Positions 24,880-37,112 of a stretch of DNA of 64,000 nt are shown piece after piece. The DNA is from Sphingomonas sediminicola (GTDB lineage: Bacteria > Pseudomonadota > Alphaproteobacteria > Sphingomonadales > Sphingomonadaceae). A program made the translations under genes and the position numbers. How positions within the stretch are numbered: position 1 is the first letter of the stretch; every line of letters starts with the position of its first letter. A model generated the notes under the pieces. The model had not been told where the DNA came from. It did no database searches and worked only from the letters and a program-made list of their open reading frames with translations. Location: positions 806,001 to 870,000 of the forward strand of contig NZ_CP060782.1 in assembly GCF_014489515.1 (NCBI RefSeq), written 5' to 3'.

Positions 24880-24915
24880 TTTCACTCGGGGCACCCTAGA
24901 CATATTATGTATACG
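24880..24915 (+). promoter_or_regulatory. Putative promoter and TGTATAC operator of the leuC-like gene
   Basis: TATTAT (24903-24908) looks like a -10 box, with TTTCAC near 24880 as a weak -35. TGTATAC (24908-24914) abuts the GTG start codon at 24915. The same TGTATAC core recurs at 29641 and 31033 in this island. There is no ribosome site before the GTG, so a leaderless message is possible. Confidence 0.45.
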
Positions 24916-26333
24916 TGAGCTCTGGCCGAACCCTCTACGACAAGATTTGGGATGGACATGCGGTCGCTCCGTTGAGCGGGGATGACTGGCTGCTCTACAT
25001 CGACCGGCACCTCATTCACGAAGTAACCAGTCCACAGGCGTTTGCTGGCCTCAAGCAAGCAAGTCGGCAGGTGCGCCGGCCGGAACTCACCCTTGCCGTC
25101 GCAGATCATAATGTGCCGACGATAAGACGGAAGCTTGGGGTCGCCGGCATTGCCGATCGGGAAAGCCGTGCCCAGGTCGAGGCGCTGGAACGGAACGTCA
25201 TCGAGTTCGGCATACCCTACGTCCCGCTGATCCACCGGCAGCAGGGGATTGTGCATGTGATCGGGCCTGAGCTCGGATTTACTTTGCCAGGCATGACCGT
25301 TGTGTGCGGCGATAGCCACACGTCAACTCATGGTGCGTTCGGAGCGCTGGCGTTCGGCATCGGTACCAGCGAAGTCGAGCACGTATTTGCGACCCAGACG
25401 CTGGTGCAGTCGCACGCGAAGAACATGCGCATTCAGGTGAACGGCGCGCTCGGCACCGGAGTGACAGCGAAGGATCTCATTCTCGCGATTATCGGCCAAA
25501 TCGGCACGGCGGGAGCGACTGGCCACGTCGTTGAATATTGCGGCGAAGCAATTGCGCGACTGGACATGGCGGGGCGCATGACGGTCTGTAACATGTCGAT
25601 AGAAGCGGGCGCGCGGGCAGGCCTGATAGCGCCAGACGAGAAGACCTTTGAATGGCTGAAGGGACGGCCGCTGGTGCCCCAAGGCGAGGCATTTGTAGAG
25701 GCTTGCAGTCGTTGGCGGCGGCTTCGAAGCGATCCCGATGCCCGGTTCGATCGCGAGGTCGTGATCGAGGGCCCGGAAATTGCTCCAATGGTCAGCTGGG
25801 GAACCAGCCCGGAGGCCGTCACGGCTATCGACGGCCGTGTACCAGACCCGAAGGAGGCATCCGATGCTGGGCGTCGCGCGCAAATTGCTCGAATGCTTGA
25901 TTATATGGACCTTCGGCCCGGCCAGCCGCTGGCTGGAATTCCGATCGATCAGGTCTTTATCGGAAGCTGCACCAACGCCCGTATCGAGGACCTGCGCGCG
26001 GCGGCGGCGATTGCGCGTGAAGGGCACGTCTCGCCGGGAGTGCGAGCGCTCGTGGTGCCCGGTTCGGGAATGGTGAAGCAGGCTGCCGAGGCTGAAGGAC
26101 TCGACCAGATATTCCTCGATGCGGGATTCGACTGGCGCGACGCCGGGTGCTCGATGTGTCTGGGGATGAACGAGGACCGGCTGAACCCGGGCCAGCGCTG
26201 CGCGTCGACTTCGAACCGCAATTTCGAGGGGCGGCAAGGTCCGGGTGGCCGCACACATCTGATGTCGCCGGCCATGGCCGCCGCGGCTGCGATCGCGGGC
26301 AAGATCGTCGACGTTAGGACATTCGGCGTATGA
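24915..26333 (+). CDS. leuC: Aconitase-family hydratase large subunit (LeuC-type)
   Basis: 472 residues from GTG 24915 (VSSGRTLYDKIWDGHAVAPL). By family it is the large subunit of 3-isopropylmalate dehydratase. The 4Fe-4S cysteines are in FIGSCTNARIEDLR and DAGCSMCLGMNEDRL; substrate motifs DRHLIHEVTSPQAF, VCGDSHTSTHGAFGALAFG and CASTSNRNFEGRQG are intact. The gene starts a catabolic-looking island and shares its TGTATAC motif, with no leuA or leuB beside it. LeuCD homologues also hydrate maleate, citraconate or dimethylmaleate, and I think that is the likelier job here. Leucine synthesis is not excluded. Confidence 0.88.
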   Translation: MSSGRTLYDKIWDGHAVAPLSGDDWLLYIDRHLIHEVTSPQAFAGLKQASRQVRRPELTLAVADHNVPTIRRKLGVAGIADRESRAQVEALERNVIEFGIPYVPLIHRQQGIVHVIGPELGFTLPGMTVVCGDSHTSTHGAFGALAFGIGTSEVEHVFATQTLVQSHAKNMRIQVNGALGTGVTAKDLILAIIGQIGTAGATGHVVEYCGEAIARLDMAGRMTVCNMSIEAGARAGLIAPDEKTFEWLKGRPLVPQGEAFVEACSRWRRLRSDPDARFDREVVIEGPEIAPMVSWGTSPEAVTAIDGRVPDPKEASDAGRRAQIARMLDYMDLRPGQPLAGIPIDQVFIGSCTNARIEDLRAAAAIAREGHVSPGVRALVVPGSGMVKQAAEAEGLDQIFLDAGFDWRDAGCSMCLGMNEDRLNPGQRCASTSNRNFEGRQGPGGRTHLMSPAMAAAAAIAGKIVDVRTFGV

Positions 26334-34027: not shown

Positions 34028-35899
34028 TGCCCGCACGTATCCTGCAGAGCGACAGCGCGCCATTCGTTGCGCAAGACATCGATCCAGTCACACTCGACAT
34101 CATCGAGAACGCGCTCCGCAATGCGCGGATAGAAATGGATGCGACGCTCGTCCGAACTGCCATGTCCCTGGCATCCGTGAGCAGGGTGATGCCTTTCCTC
34201 TCATTGCCGATCCCGCGGGCAAGATGATCGTCGGTCAGTTCGGGAGCTTCATCGACGGCTTCCTTCAGGCCTTCGATGGGACGATCGAAGACGGAGACAT
34301 GATATTCCTCTCTGACCCGTACAGCTGCGAGGGTGCAATCAGTCATTCGAACGACTGGCTGGTGCTTCTGCCGGTTTTCAGAAATGGGCGGTTGGTCGCC
34401 TGGACTGCAATGTTTGGGCACCAGTCCGATATCGGCGGCAAGGTCGCGGGTCGATGCCGATCGATGCACGCGCCATCTTCGAGGAAGGTGTGCGCATCCC
34501 GCCGGTCAAAATCTATGCGAAGGGCGTCTACAACGAAGACTTGATCAAGCTCATAATGCACCAGACCCGAAAGCCGGACTGGTGCGCAGCCGATCTGAAC
34601 GCGCTTATTGCCTCCTGCCGGGTGGCCGCCCGCCGCGTTGAGGAGATTTGCGCTCGGTTCGGCGACGACACGTACATTAGCGCAACTAAAGCGCTGCTCG
34701 ACCGCAACTACCGAGCCATGAAGGCATTGATTGAAAGCAGCGTCGGCACCGACCCGGTGAGCTTCGAAGACTACGTGTGCGACGACGGCGTCGGATACGG
34801 TCCGTACAAGATAGCCTGCACCATGCACCGCGAGGGATCGAAGGTGATCCTAGACTTCGACGGCACCGATCCGCAGTCGGCCGCGTCGATCAACTTCTAT
34901 CTCAACGAGAACATGTTCAAGATGTTCTTCGGTATCTACATGATCATGGTCTTCGACCCACAGATCATGTTTAACGACGGGTTCTACGACCTCATCGAAG
35001 TGCGGATACCGGAGGGATCGCTGCTGAAACCGAGGTTTCCAGCCGCGCTATCCGGGCGAACGCACGCATTGGGCCGGATCTTCGACATTCTGGGCGGCCT
35101 CCTCGGCCAACGAACGCCGGAATTCCTTTGCGCGGCGGGCTTCAGTTCCTCGCCGCACCTCATGTATTCGGGACGCGACAAAAAGGGTGACTGGTTCCAG
35201 CTTTTTCAGATTGGCTTCGGAGGCATTCCCGGCAAGCCATTCGGGGACGGTCCGGACGGCCACTCGCTGTGGCCCGGCTTCACGAACGTCCCCAACGAGT
35301 TTCTCGAGCGCTACTTCCCGCTCAGGATTGAGCGTTACGAGGCGCTGGCCGATAGCGGCGGGCCGGGAAAGTTCCGGGGGGGGAACGGCATTCTTATGAG
35401 CTATCGCTTCTTGGCGAGCGGTACGGTGTCGATCCACGACGATCGATGGTTCACATACCCGTGGGGCGTGAACGGTGGAAAACCGGGTCAACGCGCGCGC
35501 AAGATCCTTGAAAAAGCCGACGGCACCAGGGTTCCGGTCCCGAACAAGAAGGATAGCCTGACAGTCGAAGATGGCGATGTCCTTCACTTTATCACTTGGG
35601 GAGGCGGCGGTTGGGGTAACCCGCTGGAGCGCGATCCAGCGCTGGTCGCGAAGGAAGTGAGGCAAGGCCTCGTCAGTCCAGCGGGGGCGCGCCAGTATGG
35701 CGTCGTTTGCGATGCCGAAGGCTTTCTGGACGAAACTGCAACTCGAGCTCTGCGCAGCTCGATGCAAGGACAGGGCGCGAACGAGTTGTTCGACCGGGGC
35801 GGCACGATCGAAGAGCTTCGGGCACGATGCGAGAAGGAGACGGGGCTGCCGGCGCCGCTGCCACCACGCTGGGATGTAATTCCCATGGCGGCAGCATGA
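34027..35899 (+). CDS. hyuB: Hydantoinase subunit B, HyuB (frameshifted twice)
   Basis: Starts at ATG 34027. Lost bases in CCC 34166-34168 and GGG 34448-34450 split it; restored it reads TAMSPGIREQGDAFPLIADP and GGKVAGSMPIDARAIFEEGV. The product is about 625 residues with hydantoinase B motifs IENALRNARIEMDATL, DPYSCEGAISHSNDW, DFDGTDPQSAASINFYLN, DSGGPGKFRGGNGILMSYRF and ITWGGGGWGNPLERDP. It forms the complex with HyuA that opens the cyclic amide. It ends in an overlap with the CoA transferase start. Confidence 0.9.
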
Positions 35900-37112
35900 C
35901 TCTGAGCGGCGAGAACAGGGGCCCACTCAAGGACATCCGCGTCGTTGAGATGGGGCAACTGATTGCCGGGCCTTTCTGCGGCCAACTGCTCGGCGACATG
36001 GGCGCGGATGTCATCAAGATCGAGCCGCCCTCCACGAGCAAGAGCAAGGGTGGCGACCCGATGCGCGACTGGGGTCGCGGCGACTATCCGCTTTGGTGGG
36101 AAGTCGTAGGACGAAACAAGAAGAGCGTCACAGCAAACCTTCGCGAGCCGGAGGGGCAGGATCTCGCGCGGAGGCTCATCGGCAAGGCGGACATCCTGAT
36201 CGAGAACTTCCGCCCAGGCACACTCGAAAGGTGGGGCCTCGCGCCTGAGAAGCTCCATGCTGAGAATCCGCGCCTGATCATTGTCCGTGTCTCCGGCTAC
36301 GGTCAGACTGGCCCCTATTCGAATCGTGCCGGCTTCGGGGGAATTGGCGAGGCAATGGGTGGCTGGCGCAACATCGTTGGGGACCCTGACCGGCCGCCAA
36401 GCCGAATGGGCGTTTCGATCGGCGATAGCCTTGCCGCGACCTACGGATGCATGGGCGCGCTAGCCGCACTCCATCACCGGGACCGAACAGGCGAAGGGCA
36501 GGTCGTCGACAGCGCATTGTACGAGGCGGTGCTGCAGGTGATGGAAAGCCTGGTCCCGGAATACGCGGCAAGCGGCTACATCCGGCGTCGCTCCGGAAGC
36601 AAACTTCCGGGCATCGCGCCATCGAACGTTTACCGCTGCAAGGACGGCGAGCTTCTGATTGGAGCAAACCAGGACAGCGTTTTCGCACGGCTGTGCAAGG
36701 CGATGGGCAAGCCCGAACTTGCGTCCGACCCGCGGTACGTCGATCATATCGCTCGCGGTCGCAACCAGGACGAACTTGATGCGCTGATCGAGGCCTGGAC
36801 CTCAACGAAGTCATTGGCAGAGGTGGAAGATCTGATGATCCGGCACGCGATCCCTGCCGGGCGTGTCTATACCCCAAGGACATGCTTGAAGATCCGCACT
36901 TTGCCGCGCGCGAAGCAATTATTGAAGTGCCGCATCCTCGCTGGGGCAAGCTCAAGATGCAGAATGCATTTCCTCGGCTGTCCCGAACGCCGACGGGCGT
37001 CCGGCGCGTCGCCCCGCAGAAGATCGGACAAGACAATGCCGAAGTCTATTCCGAACTGCTGGGAATTGAGGCCGAAGAGTTGGCTGGGCTAAGGCACCGC
37101 GGCATCGTCTAA
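35896..37112 (+). CDS. CaiB/BaiF (family III) CoA-transferase (frameshifted)
   Basis: Starts at ATG 35896 (MTLSGENRGPLKDIRVVEMG). The catalytic Asp is in GVSIGDSLAATYGCMGAL; other motifs are LLGDMGADVIKIEPP, GRNKKSVTANLREPEGQ, ENFRPGTLERWGL and VSGYGQTGPYSNRAGF. One base is lost in CCCC 36872-36875; restored it reads GRVYTPKDMLEDPHFAAREA. About 406 residues. It moves CoA between carboxylic acids (succinyl-CoA is a common donor). As the last gene of the operon with an acyl-CoA lyase first, it most likely makes the lyase substrate. Confidence 0.9.

Follow-up and report, generated by a model that had tools for sequence, protein, structure and literature searches.

A conserved sphingomonad gene module, likely for the degradation of an alkylated cyclic imide, and a LeuCD pair that probably works with it

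We analyzed a window of 64,000 bases from Sphingomonas sediminicola, bases 806001-870000 of a single-contig assembly of 2,757,025 bases (here G000; 90.6% complete), which contains a cluster of genes for a LeuC/LeuD pair, a TonB-dependent receptor, a GntR regulator, an isochorismatase-fold amidase, an HMGL-type lyase, the HyuA and HyuB proteins, and a CaiB-type coenzyme A (CoA)-transferase. Our principal finding is that the conserved module at this locus likely serves to degrade an alkylated cyclic imide and that leucine synthesis is very probably not the role of this genome's LeuCD pair. The best-fitting substrate is an alkylated imide with a five-membered ring; we put the probability that the whole chain acts on an alkylmaleimide-type compound at about 0.5, and we infer every reaction, substrate and direction in it from sequence comparisons.

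In the pathway that we propose, HyuAB would use ATP to open the ring of an alkylated imide (a maleimide being the likeliest), and the isochorismatase-fold amidase would free ammonia to leave an alkylmaleate, to which LeuCD would add water. The resulting alkylmalate would receive CoA from the CoA-transferase, and cleavage of this alkylmalyl-CoA ester by the HMGL-type lyase would give a 2-oxo acid and an acyl-CoA. The hydrated product would be a tertiary alcohol beta to a carboxylate, and its CoA ester would resemble 3-hydroxy-3-methylglutaryl-CoA (HMG-CoA); a lyase of the phosphoenolpyruvate (PEP)-mutase family could cleave the free acid instead. The probable role of the TonB receptor is uptake, either of the substrate itself or of a larger precursor, and that of the GntR protein is the sensing of a pathway intermediate. 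Isopropylmalate isomerase works via an alkylmaleate, and because it acts on such compounds the housekeeping LeuCD would probably suffice, serving in trans where leucine is still made; it would then be chiefly leucine auxotrophs that require a copy of their own for the pathway. Such use in trans may explain why a linked LeuCD is lacking in most sphingomonads. LeuCD of Escherichia coli makes citraconate from citramalate (PMC6561320). As isopropylmalate isomerase works via an alkylmaleate and E. coli LeuCD acts on citramalate, an alkylmaleate derived from an imide would be a natural substrate of LeuCD.

The case for LeuCD as a catabolic enzyme begins with this genome. The leuC gene (window positions 24915..26333, plus strand) encodes a large subunit of the LeuC/aconitase family, the predicted alkylmaleate hydratase (TIGR00170, 747 bits against a cut-off of 560), and leuD (26330..26949, plus strand) the small subunit (TIGR00171, 204 bits against 116; its body is open from 26335). 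LeuC keeps three conserved cysteines, which we take to be the ligands of an iron-sulfur cluster. LeuC and LeuD are each encoded once in the genome, whose other aconitase-family matches all belong to AcnA. In this 90.6% complete assembly we found no LeuB over the cut-off (best match 22.6 bits against 353) and no LeuA, the latter because the only PF00682 match is the lyase of the cluster itself. A leucine operon in this genome was rejected for lack of LeuA and LeuB. The preliminary description had named, as a finding that would refute its proposal, a LeuCD active only on isopropylmalate and sole in its genome; the pair is indeed the only one, but with neither leuA nor leuB found, its being alone counts for a catabolic role instead. 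In G029 (assigned here to Sphingomonas astaxanthinifaciens), which has the gene order of the window with all frames open, LeuA and LeuB were likewise not found, despite 99% completeness. LeuC occurs in 7 of 37 genomes of the genus, beside the cluster in G000 and G029; the other five (G003, G004, G007, G010, and G011) have LeuB over the cut-off together with LeuA-strength matches. In a tree of 34 LeuC sequences, whose support values can shift on rerooting, the leu-operon LeuC proteins of these five formed a clade with support 100, with the window and G029 sequences apart from it. Finally, in G055 and G060, which belong to another family and carry LeuCD beside the set, we found no LeuB over the cut-off and no LeuA-strength PF00682 match.

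A census of 196 genomes of the order, scored by E-value limits, points in the same direction. HyuB was found in 63 genomes, LeuC in 168, and LeuB in 160, and LeuC was present in 62 of the 63 HyuB-positive genomes versus 106 of the 133 others (Fisher 1.5e-4; our Fisher tests take genomes as independent and leave relatedness uncorrected). Among the 36 genomes without a LeuB match, LeuC was retained in six of seven that have HyuB (G000, G055, G056, G060, G133, and G134, those of G133 and G134 being counted without genome location; G146 has none) versus two of 29 that do not (G069 and G128; Fisher 9.5e-5). HyuB was also found in 26 of 47 genomes with at least two LeuC copies and in 36 of 121 with one (p 0.0026). 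LeuC lies no more than 12 kb from HyuB in at least five of the 63 genomes (G000, G049, G055, G060, and G210, in the last of which leuCD is divergent from hmgl at a distance of about 0.2 kb), where about 0.62 such linkages would be expected from 1.35 LeuC copies per 3.3-Mb genome (P 4.5e-4). Further linkages occur at L047 and L061, in G252 (outside the order), and on the Geobacillus plasmid pGYMC5201; at L047 (Sphingomonas montanisoli) leuC, leuD and the genes for the amidase, HMGL, HyuA, HyuB, and CaiB all run in the same direction. The module-linked LeuC proteins are spread over the tree, and a clean catabolic clade was not found among its 34 sequences; because the linked proteins do not form one clade, the tree suggests that LeuCD was recruited to the module several times. 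Taken together, we consider it probable that LeuCD works with this module.

The module itself is widely conserved. We scanned the window HyuB against one genome per species, which gave 466 relatives, and fetched the best 80 loci, of which 49 have enough flank for gene counts. HMGL, HyuA, HyuB, and CaiB were each present at all 49, TonB at 48, GntR at 47, and the isochorismatase-fold amidase at 42. The preliminary description had proposed a search for conservation of gene set and order, and the HMGL-HyuA-HyuB-CaiB core, present at 49 of 49 full-flank loci, is conserved more than chance would give. The commonest order (14 of 49) was TonB on the minus strand followed on the plus strand by GntR, HMGL, HyuA, HyuB, CaiB, and the isochorismatase-fold amidase; the order of the window, with the amidase on the minus strand after GntR, was seen at seven loci and, with added genes, at one more. 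Within the genus, HyuB at 86% identity or higher occurs in three of 37 genomes (G000, G029, and G003). Overlapping ends had been described for hmgl, hyuA, hyuB, and caiB, and these genes do overlap or come into near contact, the gaps in the intact G029 cluster being -4, +2, and -1 bases.

Some loci carry additional genes. The G029 cluster differs from that of the window in having a racemase-like gene and two SnoaL-like genes. A protein of the Asp/Glu/hydantoin-racemase family (L128:7861-9424, minus strand) is encoded at 24 of the 80 sphingomonad loci, though not in the cluster of the window, and two SnoaL-like genes occur at the same 24 loci. Two catalytic cysteines are presumably to be expected in the Asp/Glu racemase and maleate isomerase family. 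The protein has Thr and Ser at these two sites at all 24 loci, the G029 copy being free of cysteine, and because of these replacements it lends no support to a maleate-isomerase step. A gene of about 216 codons with a probable signal peptide lies between hyuA and hyuB at L015:8864-9547, its family being found at eight loci, and in G049 (L133:7610-10496) hyuB is followed by a TRAP-type transporter (DctP and DctM families) and, some 9 kb beyond that, by LeuCD.

Single steps of the module appear, from the gene families present, to be replaced in some relatives by unrelated enzymes of similar chemistry. Outside the order, HyuB at an E value of 1e-180 or better was found in 19 of 289 genomes of the class outside this order's family, and we opened 18 stretches, drawn from 17 of these genomes. 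All 18 encode HyuA, 12 the amidase, six CaiB, three HMGL, four a member of the PEP-mutase/isocitrate-lyase family, one CitE, three MmgE/PrpD, and one LeuCD. In G252 (L169) the genes for HyuA, HyuB, a PEP-mutase-family lyase, LeuC, LeuD, the amidase, and a second amidase of another family run in one direction. Petal death protein cleaves 2-alkyl-3-methylmalates, and it is among the nearest solved chains of the G252 lyase (197 bits), as is 2,3-dimethylmalate lyase (3fa3, 194 bits). MmgE/PrpD lies beside HyuAB in G306, G502, and G374; in G306 and G374 it takes the place of LeuCD, and G374 also has CaiB and a CitE-family lyase. A replacement of the ring-opening step may be seen in two clusters of a second type, G039 (L141) and G056 (L138), which comprise genes for the amidase, HMGL, CaiB, LeuC, LeuD, and two PuuE-like proteins, with no HyuAB within the fetched stretch. 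The PuuE-like proteins belong to the polysaccharide-deacetylase family (TIGR03212, 109-138 bits against a cut-off of 425; nearest PDB entry 3cl6), and the cyclic imidase HxnM has been placed near PuuE and the Pseudomonas putida imidase (PMC9304392). Of the stepwise degradation of an N-heterocycle envisaged at the outset, the gene set and its conservation are confirmed, and the order of steps is backed by relatives with apparently swapped steps; the substrate is a prediction. A Sua5/YciO/YrdC-like gene also lies near HyuAB in seven of the 18 distant stretches (L160-L163, L168, L170, and L171).

Comparable sets are found on plasmids. A search with HyuB gave 20 plasmid records at an E value of 1e-100 or better, of which we opened 13 (all except H1, H3, H4, H6, H7, H9, and H10). 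The amidase is encoded on 11 of these, the CoA-transferase on seven, an HMGL-superfamily protein (annotated as HMG-CoA lyase, citramalate synthase or a member of the LeuA family) on six, and a PEP-mutase-family lyase on four, with both lyases on none. The 45-kb plasmid pGYMC5201 of Geobacillus sp. Y412MC52, a member of another phylum from Obsidian Hot Spring, has all seven enzyme genes in the order isochorismatase, HyuA, HyuB, CoA-transferase, HMG-CoA lyase, an insertion sequence (IS) element, leuC, and leuD. Their products are 37% (isochorismatase), 48% (HyuA), 53% (HyuB), 51% (CoA-transferase), 42% (lyase), 61% (LeuC), and 42% (LeuD) identical to those of G029. Four haloarchaeal plasmids combine HyuAB and the amidase with a PEP-mutase-family lyase. 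The locus had been called an island, a label that is conjectural for this genome, although homologous sets do sit on plasmids elsewhere. Close HyuAB homologues are also encoded on plasmids of Sphingomonas JE1 and Sphingobium TomTYG65 (L174 and L175), along with flavoprotein oxidoreductases, succinate-semialdehyde dehydrogenase, and a zinc-binding dehydrogenase or quinone oxidoreductase.

A number of observations weigh against the proposed pathway or against the part given to LeuCD in it. LeuC and LeuD lie beside the module at just one of the 49 full-flank loci and at two of the 80 overall (L047 and L061), so that LeuCD, which the preliminary description had counted as a member of the cluster, is not a fixed one among sphingomonads. 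Both subunits exceed the leucine equivalog cut-offs, and the LeuC proteins of G055 and G060 were placed among canonical ones. Completeness is just 64-85% in five of the seven genomes with HyuB and without LeuB; G056 has its LeuC in a type-2 cluster and also a LeuA-strength match, so that its lack of LeuB may be an assembly gap; and in G060 HMGL lies on a different contig from the module. A maleate-isomerase step by the racemase-like gene, which lacks the cysteines and lies outside the cluster of the window, was not supported. Among the 18 stretches outside the order, at least one lyase is present in six and a hydratase in four, the amidase being present in 12. Two of them, L170 and L171, carry a PEP-mutase-family lyase together with HMGL and CaiB, and the two kinds of lyase are therefore not strict alternatives. 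On plasmids H5 and H8 the neighbors of HyuAB are flavoprotein genes and a succinate-semialdehyde dehydrogenase, and the amidase, transferase, and lyase are lacking; H16 has no lyase. The equivalog scores, the rarity of LeuCD beside the sphingomonad modules, and an assembly that is both incomplete and affected by insertions and deletions would also suit a different history, in which LeuCD is the relic of a lost leucine operon, or its partner genes were missed, and its adjacency to the module is coincidental. We consider this decidedly unlikely, given the same gene order without detected LeuA or LeuB in the 99% complete G029, the independent linkages in L047, L061, G210, G055, G060, G252, and Geobacillus, the association of LeuC with HyuB among the 36 genomes without a LeuB match, and the distance between the window LeuC and the leu-operon LeuC of the five genomes of the genus.

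The assignment of the enzymes rests on Pfam and NCBIfam profile scores measured against family cut-offs, and all eight functions named in the preliminary description (the LeuC/LeuD pair, TonB, GntR/FCD, isochorismatase, HMGL, HyuA, HyuB, and CaiB) were confirmed at their places. The amidase, a predicted alkylmaleamate amidohydrolase (30339..30983, minus strand; Pfam), has an Asp-Lys-Cys triad that is kept at 54 of 58 sphingomonad loci (the other four fall outside the alignment coverage) and at 23 of 23 distant ones. Its best solved match is 3ot4/3uao (139.6 bits for 3ot4), which we take to be the maleamate amidohydrolase NicF. The HMGL-type lyase (31048..31989, plus strand; PRK05692, 266 bits against a cut-off of 246), predicted to split alkylmalyl-CoA, belongs to a family whose catalytic positions are presumably Arg-Asp, His-x-His, and Cys; Arg, Asp, and Cys are present at 66 of 66 aligned loci and both His residues at 67 of 67. 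For the family III, CaiB-type CoA-transferase (35896..37106, plus strand; NCBIfam), the best models are succinate-glutarate and succinyl-CoA:mesaconate CoA-transferase, the G029 protein scoring 258 bits against a cut-off of 750 for the former and 254 against 700 for the latter and thus missing both. The products of hyuA (31986..34027) and hyuB (34027..35899), both on the plus strand and called by Pfam and NCBIfam, are homologous to subunits of acetophenone and acetone carboxylase, from which one might suppose that HyuAB is an ATP-dependent carboxylase of that type and that the other genes process a carboxylated product. This is most improbable: HyuA scores 466 and 370 bits with hydrolases versus at most 310 with carboxylase subunits, HyuB 233 and 214 versus at most 132, no third carboxylase subunit is found among the conserved genes, and the amidase is usually present.

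The best solved matches of both HyuA and HyuB are the N-methylhydantoinase 7hk5 and the 5-oxoprolinase/hydantoinase pair 6yra, and the best NCBIfam models are CapAB. An identity with caprolactamase CapAB was rejected, the G029 proteins scoring 526 and 216 bits, under equivalog cut-offs of 1000 bits each. These matches leave room for another cyclic amide, such as hydantoin, N-methylhydantoin or a lactam, which HyuAB would open and from which the amidase would remove a carbamoyl or amide group, with the transferase and lyase handling the acid and LeuCD not being needed. The amidase accords with this too, in that it scores 138.8 bits with N-carbamoylsarcosine amidohydrolase (26st), nearly its score with 3ot4, as does the presence of LeuCD at only two of 80 loci. 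We regard such a substrate as possible, if rather unlikely, as a CoA-transferase together with an HMGL-type lyase is not known to have a role in hydantoin routes, as LeuCD, MmgE/PrpD or malate-type lyases recur next to HyuAB, and as retention of LeuC tracks HyuB in genomes without LeuB. Within the alkylmaleimide pathway that we favor, a more specific and tentative proposal, which we think unlikely as it stands, is that the substrates are maleimides from the decay of tetrapyrroles (chlorophyll, bilins, and haem), namely ethylmethylmaleimide, methylvinylmaleimide, and hematinic acid. Bacteria associated with phototrophs and haloarchaea would then share an ATP-dependent mineralization of alkylmaleimides, in which LeuCD, retained for this end by leucine auxotrophs, would hydrate the dialkylmaleate on the way to pyruvate and an acyl-CoA (glutaryl-CoA in the case of hematinic acid). 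Hints of this are the 2,3-dimethylmalate-lyase relative beside LeuCD and HyuAB, the succinate-glutarate CoA-transferase model, the TonB receptor, and the hosts, whose names and records point to salt lakes, a hot spring, and cultures of cyanobacteria as their origin.

Several known systems resemble the module in part. In the fermentation of nicotinate by Eubacterium barkeri, the dimethylmaleate hydratase DmdAB is followed by 2,3-dimethylmalate lyase. The likeness lies in a LeuCD-family hydratase acting on a dialkylmaleate ahead of carbon-carbon cleavage, and G252 has a 3fa3-related lyase between HyuB and LeuC; in our module, however, the acid would arise from a ring via HyuAB and the amidase, and in sphingomonads it would be a CoA ester that an HMGL-type lyase cleaves. 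The lower pathway of aerobic nicotinate degradation has the maleamate amidohydrolase NicF and the maleate isomerase NicE. The amidase of the module has its best solved match in an enzyme that we take to be NicF, but the acid would be hydrated and cleaved rather than isomerized to fumarate, and the residue check of the racemase-like protein revealed no cysteine-bearing isomerase in the cluster. The creatinine/N-methylhydantoin pathway shares HyuAB and an isochorismatase-fold amidase yet is not known to have a place for a CoA-transferase, an HMGL-type lyase or LeuCD. The nicotinate route of Aspergillus nidulans also opens a cyclic imide and then hydrolyzes an amide, and its HxnM belongs to the family of the type-2 ring openers; as described in PMC9304392, it differs in having a six-membered ring, alpha-hydroxyglutarate as product, and no hydratase or CoA step. 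Itaconate degradation (PMC12290011) likewise activates a C5 diacid with CoA and uses a citramalyl-CoA lyase, whereas our module would hydrate (by LeuCD) before CoA is loaded and has a lyase of the HMGL family. We found no paper describing this gene set in the open-access literature as covered by titles and the starts of abstracts, subscription papers being unsearched. The enzyme families are each known; as far as titles and the openings of abstracts tell, it is their combination and the role of LeuCD that are apparently undescribed.

The cluster in this assembly is not intact as sequenced. Aligned to the G029 proteins, the TonB-dependent receptor (26963..29523, minus strand; Pfam) falls in two frames with a break near 28816, HyuA in two (near 33125-33140), HyuB in three (near 34167 and 34448), and CaiB in two (near 36852-36891), and the body of LeuD is read in a different frame from the leuD ATG that overlaps the leuC stop; none of these breaks had been remarked on in the preliminary description. 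Only the GntR regulator of the FCD type (29704..30360, plus strand; Pfam), LeuC, the amidase, and the lyase escape; breaks thus hit five of the nine genes, and they might be genuine, the module decaying in this strain and its genes being non-functional. That most breaks lie outside homopolymer runs would agree with decay, and homopolymer errors as their cause were not shown, four of five inspected stretches having no run of four or more. Even so, decay is improbable: the pieces of the broken genes are still 68-94% identical to the G029 proteins, and AcnA and a large 5-oxoprolinase homologue are split in the same assembly as well (G000:C1:131960-134198 and 2619161-2620282). The longest open frame of AcnA is 500 amino acids, against 893-1098 in 30 of the 31 genomes of the genus with an AcnA match and 812 in the other, and that of the 5-oxoprolinase homologue is 747, against 1045-1333 in 14 of 17 other genomes with one match (it is shorter in G012, G028, and G036). 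Because these two genes are also split, the breaks in the window are likely assembly insertions and deletions. No RNA feature reached its gathering score at 20000-42000.

If the proposed pathway is correct, the genes of a conserved degradation route now carry annotations for leucine biosynthesis, for leucine degradation (as HMG-CoA lyase), and for hydantoin metabolism, the pieces of this route being spread over Alphaproteobacteria, Geobacillus, Rubrobacter, and haloarchaea. LeuCD would then be a hydratase in shared use that persists after the leucine pathway is lost, and predictions of auxotrophy that count leuCD would be misled. The module would also offer a testable entry into the biology of maleimides, which are the last identifiable products of tetrapyrrole decay.

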